A DNA stretch of 64,000 nt, taken from positions 1-64,000 of the forward strand of contig CANHQP010000017.1 in NCBI GenBank assembly GCA_947462925.1, read 5' to 3'. The DNA comes from Flavobacteriia bacterium (lineage in GTDB: Bacteria > Bacteroidota > Bacteroidia > Flavobacteriales_D > Crocinitomicaceae). Below, one piece after another: positions 57,211 to 60,120 of this stretch. The number at the start of each line of letters is the position of its first letter. The first letter of the stretch is position 1. A program made the position numbers and the translations under genes. The notes under the pieces are model-generated. The model did no database searches, had not been told where the DNA came from, and saw only the letters and a list, made by a program, of their open reading frames with translations.

Positions 57211-57281
57211 GGTCTCGTGGCCGAGCGGTTAGGCAGCGGTCTGCAAAACCGTCTACAGCGGTTCGAATCCGCTCGAGACCT
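57211..57281 (+). tRNA. tRNA-Cys (anticodon GCA)
   Basis: Seventy-one bases fold as a cloverleaf. The acceptor GGTCTCG pairs with CGAGACC. The anticodon loop CTGCAAA (anticodon GCA) is closed by GCGGT/ACCGT. The T arm is AGCGG/CCGCT around TTCGAAT. The discriminator base is T, as in tRNA-Cys, and CCA is not encoded. Confidence 0.97.
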
Positions 57282-57282
57282 C

Positions 57283-57398: not shown

Positions 57399-58259
57399 TT
57401 ACTTGATTGTTAAGCTTTTGAACATTTTAATGCTTTTTCCGTTCAAATCGGTGGCGAAAATCACATATCCATAATTGCCAGCTTCAACCATATTACCGGC
57501 TGGATCCAAGCCAAACCATTTAAAATCTTTGTCTGTAGATTGAAACACAAATTCATTTCTTTCATTGAAAATTCGGATGGTAAAATCTTTTAAATTTTCT
57601 GATCTAAGAAAGAAATAGTCATTCATTCCGTCTCCATTTGGCGTAAACACATTGAAAAACTCTTCAATTTTACCGTCTTCGAATGTCTTCGTTTCAACTG
57701 GATCTGGTGTAGCATTATTAGTATTACTTGCTGAATTACTCGCGTCGTTAACACCTGCTTTATCGATAGAACCTTGATCTTCATCAGCGGGAGGTGTAAC
57801 TTGCTTACTTAAAATATCACTACCATACAATTGTCTTTCTCTCGAAATCCATTCGTCAAGATAGCTGTTAGACGGCAATTCAATTTGAGGAACAATTGGT
57901 GACGTTTGTGTAGCAATTGCATCAACATTAGTACTATTTGTTACACCCGATTTTACCCCGGTTTTTGTTACTTCTTTGGCGTTTTCATTTCCATTGTTTT
58001 GTGCGATTTGCACTTGTTGTTGTTCCTTGCTCTTTTCTGGAGAAGAAGCAATCCAAACGGTAGTTCCAATTACCGCAACAGAAGAAGCTATTCCAATCAT
58101 CCATTTCAAAGAAGACGAAATACCCTTTGCAACCACAGTTGAAGTGGCTGTGTTTCCAATTTGAGACTGAATTCCAGACCACAAGTCACTCCTTACAGGA
58201 ACCTCATGGTTGGCCAGTTTCTCAGAAAACAAATCTTTTATGTAGTCTTTATCTTTCAA
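57399..58259 (-). CDS. Putative anti-sigma factor with gliding-motility-type (CHU_C) C-terminal domain
   Basis: A 286-residue single-pass membrane protein. An N-terminal helical region of about 50 residues (KDLFSEKLANHEVPVRSDLW) would face the cytoplasm, then a membrane helix at about 52-72. A low-complexity Asn/Ser/Thr linker leads to a C-terminal domain near 195-286 with NVFTPNGDGMNDYF, the CHU_C/gliding-motility-associated pattern, ending DLNGKSIKMFKSLTIK. It starts at TTG and overlaps the ECF sigma gene by 11 bases, so an anti-sigma role is inferred from order and topology. No signal peptide precedes the helix. Confidence 0.75.
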   Translation of the reverse strand: MKDKDYIKDLFSEKLANHEVPVRSDLWSGIQSQIGNTATSTVVAKGISSSLKWMIGIASSVAVIGTTVWIASSPEKSKEQQQVQIAQNNGNENAKEVTKTGVKSGVTNSTNVDAIATQTSPIVPQIELPSNSYLDEWISRERQLYGSDILSKQVTPPADEDQGSIDKAGVNDASNSASNTNNATPDPVETKTFEDGKIEEFFNVFTPNGDGMNDYFFLRSENLKDFTIRIFNERNEFVFQSTDKDFKWFGLDPAGNMVEAGNYGYVIFATDLNGKSIKMFKSLTIK

Positions 58260-58809
58260 TTTCTAATTTTTCTAATTGCATTCTTAAATGAGCCCTTGCC
58301 CTCGAATATTGTGATTTAGATGTGTTTTCACTCACACCCAATAAATCTGCTATTTCTTTGTGACTATAACCTTCAATTGCAAAAAGATTAAAAACAACTT
58401 TATAACCTTCAGGCAATAATTGAACTAGTTTTAACAAGTCTTCTGCTTGCAATTGATCTGAGGCAGACTCTAAAGACATTACTTTATATTCTACATCTTC
58501 CAATTTAGCATCAGTTAAATATTTTTTGTTTTTGCGAAGCGCATCGAGTGACGTGTTGACCATAATTCTACGAATCCAACCCTCCAACGAACCTTCCATT
58601 TTGAAGTCCGACAACTTACCAAACACTTTTACAAAACCTTCTTGCAAAACATCTTCAGCTTCTGTCGTATCTTTTGCGTAGCGCAAACAAACAGTCAACA
58701 TTTTAGGAGCAAATTTATCAAACAACAATCGCTGAGCCTTGGGATTACATTTAACACATTCTATAACCAAAGTGTTGTCATCCATAACGCTTGCTTGAGT
58801 ATTAGACAT
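58249..58809 (-). CDS. ECF-type RNA polymerase sigma factor
   Basis: A 186-residue sigma-70 family protein with only regions 2 and 4. Region 2 includes LRYAKDTTEAEDVLQEGFVKVF (about 42-63) and region 4 the helix-turn-helix YSHKEIADLLGVSENTSKSQYSRARAHL (about 147-174). Overlaps the downstream membrane-protein gene, as is usual for sigma/anti-sigma pairs. The target promoter is unknown. Confidence 0.9.
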   Translation of the reverse strand: MSNTQASVMDDNTLVIECVKCNPKAQRLLFDKFAPKMLTVCLRYAKDTTEAEDVLQEGFVKVFGKLSDFKMEGSLEGWIRRIMVNTSLDALRKNKKYLTDAKLEDVEYKVMSLESASDQLQAEDLLKLVQLLPEGYKVVFNLFAIEGYSHKEIADLLGVSENTSKSQYSRARAHLRMQLEKLEIER

Positions 58810-58887
58810 TATTTCTTTCTAAAAAGTTGCATTCTACAAATATTTTAAAGAAAAAAAGTATTTTCGTCATCTGAATCAAAGTTAGAG

Positions 58888-60120
58888 ATGTTTTTAAAAT
58901 CAACCACTATTTTCTTTTTGAGTTTATTTTTGAGCTTTTATACAAGTACAATAAATGGGCTTTTTGCGCAATCTAAAATTCAATCTGGAAAATGGAATGG
59001 CACACTGCAATTGAACAACGAAACCGTTTTACCTTTTAGAATGGAAATAGAAAAACAGAAGAAACAAATGGTTTTTTCTATTCACAATGCGGAAGAAAAG
59101 ATTGTTTTAAATCAACTCGTTTTTGAAAATGATTCCATAAAAATCGATTTTCCAAATTTTCATTCTACGCTAAAATTCAAAGTAGAAAACAAAAAATTAC
59201 TCGTAGGATATTGGAAAAATTTCAACAAAGGAAACCAATACAAAATCCCTTTTAAAGCTGTTTATGGGGAAACCGAAAGATCTACATCAATAAATAATTT
59301 TGATTTTTCTGGGCGATGGAAAACAACTTTCGATCCAAGTACGGAAGATGAATCTATGGCAATAGGTGTTTTTAAATCAAAAGACGCCAAAATAACAGGA
59401 ACTTTCTTGACAGAAACAGGTGATTATCGCTTTTTAGAAGGAACAGTAACCGGAAAGCATTTTTCACTATCCTGTTTCGATGGATCTCATGCATTTCATT
59501 TTTCTGGGTTACTTGATTCAACAGCAACTATTCAAGGAAAGTTTTATTCAGGAAAACATTATTCAACCAATTGGATTGCTGTAAATGATTCTACTTTTCA
59601 GCTTAGAAACCCAGATTCTTTGACTTATGTTGTAAAAAAAGAACCTTTCTCTTTTAAAATGAAAACACTGGAGGGAAAAGATTTTATTTATCCAAATCCT
59701 GTCTTCGATAAAAAAGTAACCATTGTTCAGATTATGGGAACTTGGTGTCCAAACTGTATGGATGAAACCAAATTTTTCAAAGAATTGTTCGCAAAATACC
59801 ATGAAAAAGGATTAGAAATAATCGCTGTTGGTTATGAAACACCAAATGATTTTGAAGGTCAAGCCAATAAAATAAAACTATTAAAAGAAAGACATCATTT
59901 AGATTTTCAATTTTTAGTAGGTGGTTCTGCGAGCAAAGGTTTGGCATCTGAACAATTTTCTATGTTAAATCAGATAATGTCTTTTCCAACCGCTATCGTC
60001 ATTGGCAGAGATGGAGAAGTAAAAAGAGTACATACAGGATTCAATGGACCAGGAACAGGAAAATTGTATGAAGACTATGTAAAAGAAATGGATCTATTTA
60101 TCCAAGATCTTTTGAAATAA
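58888..60120 (+). CDS. Exported thioredoxin-like protein (TlpA/ResA type)
   Basis: A 410-residue exported protein (signal peptide about 1-27). Residues about 30-255 are a beta-rich domain unique to Bacteroidota TlpA relatives (SGKWNGTLQLNNETVLPFRM). The C-terminal ~150 residues are a thioredoxin fold with the active site WCPNC in IMGTWCPNCMDETKFF. The CPNC motif predicts a thiol-disulfide reductase in the periplasm. Stands alone; the sigma-factor operon is divergent from it. Confidence 0.88.
   Translation: MFLKSTTIFFLSLFLSFYTSTINGLFAQSKIQSGKWNGTLQLNNETVLPFRMEIEKQKKQMVFSIHNAEEKIVLNQLVFENDSIKIDFPNFHSTLKFKVENKKLLVGYWKNFNKGNQYKIPFKAVYGETERSTSINNFDFSGRWKTTFDPSTEDESMAIGVFKSKDAKITGTFLTETGDYRFLEGTVTGKHFSLSCFDGSHAFHFSGLLDSTATIQGKFYSGKHYSTNWIAVNDSTFQLRNPDSLTYVVKKEPFSFKMKTLEGKDFIYPNPVFDKKVTIVQIMGTWCPNCMDETKFFKELFAKYHEKGLEIIAVGYETPNDFEGQANKIKLLKERHHLDFQFLVGGSASKGLASEQFSMLNQIMSFPTAIVIGRDGEVKRVHTGFNGPGTGKLYEDYVKEMDLFIQDLLK

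Follow-up and report, generated by a model that had tools for sequence, protein, structure and literature searches.

The window, which is the whole 64,000-nucleotide stretch that was analysed (contig CANHQP010000017.1, positions 1 to 64,000), contains a gene for an ECF sigma factor and, directly after it on the same strand, a gene for a predicted transmembrane anti-sigma factor. The features of the locus are as follows.

58804..58831, minus strand: ECF-type promoter, TGCAAC-N18-GTCT (-35 element TGCAAC at 58826-58831, -10 element GTCT at 58804-58807)
58249..58785, minus strand: gene for the ECF sigma factor, 178 aa when read from the corrected ATG (the mechanical open reading frame reaches 58809)
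57399..58259, minus strand: predicted transmembrane anti-sigma factor, 286 aa, TTG start, with full-length relatives across the order
58152..58259, minus strand: N-terminal cytoplasmic (anti-sigma) domain, aa 1-36, two helices (alignment and model)
58047..58103, minus strand: single transmembrane helix, aa 53-71 (hydropathy and model)
57696..58046, minus strand: disordered, fast-evolving periplasmic linker, aa 72-188 (low pLDDT and alignment)
57402..57695, minus strand: CHU_C / T9SS type-B-signal-like beta-sandwich, aa 189-286 (Pfam, model and motif counts)
57612..57653, minus strand: NVFTPNGDGMNDYF motif, aa 203-216 (exact string match)
58888..60120, plus strand: divergent TlpA-like (redoxin) gene (Pfam Redoxin, 8.7e-11)

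The sigma protein matches the NCBIfam profile TIGR02937 (E 1.2e-26), and Pfam finds both Sigma70_r2 and Sigma70_r4_2 in it, so that regions 2 and 4 are both present. Its listed start, ATG 58809, falls within the -10 element of the gene's own promoter. As that promoter occupies 58804-58831, the start is probably ATG 58785, from which the protein would begin MDDNTLV; the orthologous sigma proteins begin MDDxTLV. The initial annotation had placed here a sigma gene that overlaps a membrane protein gene, and both were located, on the minus strand, with the anti-sigma reading frame sharing 11 nt with the stop end of the sigma gene. An ECF sigma gene adjoining that of a membrane protein with an N-terminal cytoplasmic domain is the layout of an ECF sigma factor and its transmembrane anti-sigma factor, and homology, gene overlap and gene arrangement together suggest that the second protein binds the first.

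The architecture of the anti-sigma factor was examined with an AlphaFold2 model built on an alignment of 35 relatives. The model contains helices at aa 4-16, 24-35 and 53-71, the last being the transmembrane helix, close to the hydropathy peak near aa 54. In the N-terminal domain, Trp27 is invariant and Val22 nearly so among the aligned relatives. Confidence is low over most of aa 72-188, a linker of about 117 disordered residues, and pLDDT exceeds 90 along most of the beta sandwich that follows (aa 189-286). The single helix and the C-terminal domain bearing NVFTPNGDGMNDYF were thereby found as the initial annotation had described them. No cleavable signal peptide was seen in the anti-sigma factor, which has one transmembrane helix instead; because of this combination, the N-terminus likely lies inside and the CHU_C domain outside.

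The promoter upstream of the sigma gene is conserved. TGCAAC-N18-GTC, with exactly this spacing, was found there in 52 of 54 genomes, and the opposite strand of the same upstream DNA gave no match. A conserved ECF-type promoter in this position implies that the sigma gene is autoregulated. The divergent TlpA-like gene adjoins the sigma gene in 27 of the 29 loci of the family for which flanking sequence was available, and also in family f10; the two genes may share a divergent promoter region. Disulfide-linked outer-membrane proteins have recently been reported in gliding and T9SS energisation (PMC12635249). On the other side of the pair, the window has a tRNA-Cys gene (57211-57282) between the end of folB and the anti-sigma gene; in the relative G015 a gene block resembling an integrated element (L176:2733-7332) is found in that place.

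Conservation of the pair, which had been proposed as a check on the initial annotation, was followed first within the family of the window. The anti-sigma query matched in some way in 99 of 100 genomes, many of the matches being to the CHU_C domains of cargo proteins only. At the best 30 places (one per genome) the same three-part protein is encoded in every case, and the sigma gene lies directly upstream, mostly overlapping, in all 29 loci that reach upstream; a close relative, a Flavobacteriia metagenome genome, is 95% identical. When 299 genomes of the order were searched with a profile and loci were read from the matches, complete matches turned up in the majority of the genomes sampled from the window's family, and the sigma gene with its CHU_C anti-sigma partner was found in families f3, f9 and f10 as well. 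The pair and its layout are therefore kept in the window's family and at least three others.

In f3, f9, f10 and some genera of f1 the anti-sigma factor is longer (~340-390 aa), with an extended linker that ends in a PKD domain ahead of CHU_C; the PKD assignment was confirmed by Pfam in L103, L105, L110, L161 and L162. The combination of PKD and CHU_C is common at the ends of T9SS adhesins. Some of these long anti-sigma factors also have a typical type B end (e.g., SGTVTLNR in L103), and in f9 the pair is immediately followed by giant genes with CHU_C-type ends (L169 and L174, and likewise the second pair of L170).

The C-terminal domain matches Pfam CHU_C (PF13585) over aa 201-270 with 53.3 bits (E 3.2e-14, cutoff 27). 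With the NCBIfam profile TIGR04131 the window protein scores 30.9 bits, under the cutoff of 35, and all 35 orthologues scanned, from several families, match this profile with E values of 0.001 or better (best 1.3e-13). A chance resemblance of NVFTPNGDG, one of the outcomes that would have undone the initial annotation, is ruled out by the profile scores together with the conservation, and the domain is a genuine relative of the type B signal. A generic FlgD_ig domain was also considered and rejected, as its Pfam score of 18 bits is under the cutoff. Foldseek returned generic Ig-like folds only, including weak matches to PorU and PorZ; a 2025 paper states that no structure of a type B signal domain had been solved up to that year (PMC12618676).

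The anti-sigma domains differ from those of cargo in one motif. R[WYF]G is present in 61 of 64 cargo CHU_C domains, taken from the window's own genome, the predicted targets described below and other taxa, and in none of 51 anti-sigma CHU_C domains, whereas an FTPN-like motif and the W-x-G motif are retained in both groups. In Flavobacterium johnsoniae SprB, five type B motifs are conserved, and secretion is blocked when any one of them is mutated (PMC12618676). R[WYF]G may or may not be among these five, and the anti-sigma tail may not be exported. Because R[WYF]G is missing, the anti-sigma CHU_C domain is probably a sensor derived from a secretion signal rather than plain cargo; a tail of type B origin could attach to the recognition machinery and yet not be exported, or it may act in another way.

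In a tree of CHU_C domains a single branch has the type 1 anti-sigma domains to one side of it, but its support is low (58) and the columns are few. There was no clear trend for regulon cargo to be the closest kin of the anti-sigma domains (L014 came first and others were scattered). A 137-aa lipoprotein-like protein with a CHU_C domain that lacks R[WYF]G is encoded downstream of a sigma-like reading frame in an uncultured Bacteroidetes bacterium (L063:2848-3261), and may be a separate-gene form of such a tail.

Two other readings of the domain have to be weighed against a signal-derived sensor. The CHU_C fold might now serve as an ordinary periplasmic binding domain of the Ig-like kind, for a ligand or a state of the cell wall that has nothing to do with T9SS, with the control of adhesins merely downstream; the loss of R[WYF]G from all the anti-sigma factors, the generic nature of the beta sandwich and the degenerate FTPN of some members (e.g., L046 and L039) would all be in keeping with this. 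It is nevertheless regarded as quite improbable, given that FTPNxDGxND, the W-G motif and the C-terminal strand are kept across the order, that every scanned orthologue matches TIGR04131 and that several lineages keep PKD together with CHU_C. Alternatively, the anti-sigma factor might itself be true T9SS cargo, with export of the tail or its cleavage at the surface lifting the brake in the manner of FlgM. Secretion-coupled anti-sigma control is established for FlgM, and the canonical type B ends found in some families, such as SGTVTLNR, would suit such a role. An inner-membrane helix without a cleaved signal peptide, the missing R[WYF]G and the score of the window member under the TIGR04131 cutoff all argue against it, and this second reading is considered very improbable.

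The kinship of the anti-sigma factor was sought through its N-terminal domain, which, used alone, matched in 75 of the 395 genomes searched in the phylum. The proteins read there directly follow ECF sigma factors that match the window's sigma factor, mostly at 36-49% identity. Those examined outside the order end in outer-membrane beta barrels (PF13568 / PF13505) or are short (~260 aa). The possibility that the CHU_C type extends across the phylum was accordingly set aside, on a sample of matches rather than a census. The window's genome has three such pairs: that of the window, one at C13:4888-6694 (L171), in which the anti-sigma factor ends in a divergent CHU_C-like domain, and one at C28:21500-27000 (L152), in which a 493-aa anti-sigma factor overlaps the ECF sigma factor and ends in an outer-membrane beta barrel. 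In pairs of the second type (L171, L164 and L170) GGCAACC is found in the sigma promoters, together with a -10 element resembling GCGT/CGTC. The anti-sigma factor of this type in G107 has FSPNGDG as well as PKD domains, and three giant genes for secreted proteins come after it.

The layout of the C28 pair is that of the Dma family, whose members combine an anti-sigma domain, a transmembrane helix, a disordered tether and a C-terminal barrel, span from the outer membrane to the cytosol, and control vesiculation (PMC13088901). By comparison with this published layout, we take the window protein to be an anti-sigma factor of Dma-like build with an exchanged envelope module.

Candidate targets of the sigma factor were sought by searching its own genome for TGCAAC-N17-19-GTCT. 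The pattern occurs 24 times, and seven copies sit 30-143 nt ahead of a start codon; a copy was counted as promoter-like where no longer frame overlaps the gene to which that start codon belongs. The other copies lie within coding sequence, save one with no gene behind it, and matches in coding genes, such as that in the SOD gene at C13:8054, were judged to be chance. One of the seven promoter-like copies is that of the sigma gene. The other six all precede genes for T9SS cargo, five of type B and one of type A:

C3:47813: 118-aa secreted protein and 970-aa CHU_C adhesin
C3:44314: 125-aa protein and 1125-aa CHU_C adhesin
C15:50484: 131-aa protein and 920-aa CHU_C adhesin
C77:3508: 1059-aa CHU_C adhesin
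C33:25933: choice-of-anchor-L-like protein within the 751-aa CHU_C frame of C33 (domain assigned through coordinates and N-terminal sequence)
C58:499: type A cargo protein (TIGR04183, 41 bits)

The genome (3.36 Mb, with an estimated 3,000 or so genes) has ~42 type B and somewhat more than 120 type A domains over cutoff (~165 in total). If 5.5% of genes encode cargo, the probability of six cargo targets out of six is ~3e-8, a value that rises somewhat because three operons were counted by their second gene; it is very unlikely that the association arose by chance.

The same relationship was found in relatives. A stricter pattern, TGCAACYTT-N14-16-GTCT, run in 19 other genomes, gave 28 sites away from the sigma gene, 18 of them within 150 nt of a start codon. 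T9SS cargo follows 17 of these 18 promoter-like sites (CHU_C in the first or second gene at 13, type A at four); at the remaining site the contig ends. The sites are spread over one f9 genome and six or more genera of the window's family, and those that are orthologous between close relatives are not independent. The type A cargo was recognised by TIGR04183 / PF18962 in L229, L231 and L242, and in L234 by its likeness to L231. With a looser test, 17 of 32 sites of the motif precede cargo, in contrast to 2 of 20 for the reversed control pattern, both of which apparently lie inside coding sequence. The strict motif picks out mainly the sigma gene's own promoter in the f3 and f10 genomes sampled, and the link to a regulon is therefore seen mainly in the window's family. 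These observations suggest that the sigma factor partnered by the CHU_C-tailed anti-sigma factor probably drives the expression of type B cargo. Small secreted proteins of 118-131 aa are encoded directly before CHU_C adhesin genes of the predicted regulon across genera (L255, L256, L228, L239 and L244); Pfam gave no match in the three that were scanned.

The predicted regulon also bears on a reading suggested by the kinship with Dma, in which the CHU_C tail is an outer-membrane or surface anchor only and what the pair responds to is envelope distance, stress or lost contact rather than cargo load. The same N-terminal domain occurs with an outer-membrane barrel both in this genome and in other families, and a tether reaching from the outer membrane to the cytosol is a property of the vesiculation-controlling Dma members. 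However, the predicted regulon consists of T9SS cargo and not of vesiculation or PUL genes, and anchoring through T9SS is uncertain for a tail without R[WYF]G. Some weight is given to such a tether, which on balance is thought unlikely.

The preferred explanation is that an autoregulated pair with the Dma layout, in which a CHU_C domain from type B signals has replaced the barrel, matches adhesin synthesis to the capacity for export and anchoring; confidence in this stands at about even. It builds on features that can be read from the DNA itself, namely the gene pair, its architecture, its order-wide conservation, the putative autoregulatory promoter and the copies of that promoter before adhesin operons. 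The genome encodes SprA and 10 PorP/SprF shuttles, and because there are ~42 type B domains, many type B proteins must share shuttles. Type B shuttles are described as specific, as required stoichiometrically and as becoming limiting under overproduction of cargo (PMC12618676), properties that would make them a sensible quantity to sense. No shuttle gene adjoins the pair in the neighbourhoods read.

In the proposed mechanism, the N-terminal helices would hold the sigma factor at the inner membrane, and the linker, about 40 nm long if stretched, would reach across the periplasm so that the CHU_C tail could dock on a part of the machinery that recognises type B signals, either a PorP/SprF-like shuttle or the exit site of SprA. 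Where this site is free, docking or pulling would release the sigma factor, probably via proteolysis, and adhesins and the pair itself would be made; where cargo fills the site, the tail would be displaced and the sigma factor held. This direction of control, in which a free site releases the sigma factor, is preferred because activation by blocked export would add more blocked cargo. Docking on T9SS may not take place, or may not follow the way of cargo, given the missing R[WYF]G. That the machine or its shuttles engage the anti-sigma tail in competition with cargo, making a FlgM-like capacity sensor out of a secretion signal, is accordingly advanced tentatively, at rather less than even confidence.

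The suggestion in the initial annotation that the periplasmic tail reports on T9SS or surface status is thus borne out in part. The tail is a relative of type B signals, the pair is conserved and the predicted regulon is largely composed of T9SS-exported adhesins, but the R[WYF]G of cargo is missing in every case, and direct sensing of T9SS status by the tail is only plausible. What is added here is the conserved sigma promoter and the copies of it before T9SS adhesins, which provide a predicted link between the pair and T9SS beyond that earlier suggestion. The pair offers a defined promoter, targets and a swappable domain with which the matching of very large surface adhesins to T9SS capacity in Bacteroidota could be studied directly. 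It further suggests that the Dma layout is a platform with an exchangeable envelope module, be it an outer-membrane barrel or a T9SS-type signal.

A literature search, conducted without preprints and most subscription papers, found no CHU_C anti-sigma factor or T9SS analogue of FlgM, and several known systems are related in part. The Dma / Das ECF21 pairs of Bacteroides thetaiotaomicron (PMC13088901) share with the window pair the domain order, the long tether and the ECF sigma partner. Their C-terminus is a beta barrel in place of a type-B-like CHU_C domain (with PKD in several lineages), and their regulon comprises vesiculation and PUL genes, where that predicted for the window pair comprises T9SS adhesins. 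In the PorA / PorXY-SigP system of Porphyromonas gingivalis (PMC7712824), a protein with a T9SS C-terminal domain, PorA, likewise influences a T9SS-related ECF sigma factor. That route runs via a two-component system and SigP controls parts of the T9SS machine, whereas in the window pair a type-B-like domain is fused to the anti-sigma factor and the predicted targets are cargo. In Flavobacterium psychrophilum, ECF promoters (SM6) stand before T9SS components and before an ECF/anti-sigma pair, THC0290_1774/1773, so that such a pair is tied to T9SS genes there as well (PMC9723704). SM6 covers T9SS components, and the accessible part of that report describes no CHU_C domain on the THC0290 anti-sigma factor.

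Type B cargo such as SprB (TIGR04131 / PF13585) shares with the anti-sigma factor a common domain family, FTPNGDGxND, the W-G motif and the C-terminal strand; in the window, by contrast, the domain is fused to a membrane anti-sigma factor, with neither a cleavable signal peptide nor R[WYF]G. If the proposed model holds, the likeness to FlgM and sigma-28 would be one of principle, with the state of an export machine controlling an anti-sigma factor that governs late exported products. FlgM is soluble, exported and unrelated in sequence and secretion system, while the anti-sigma factor of the window is bound to the membrane.
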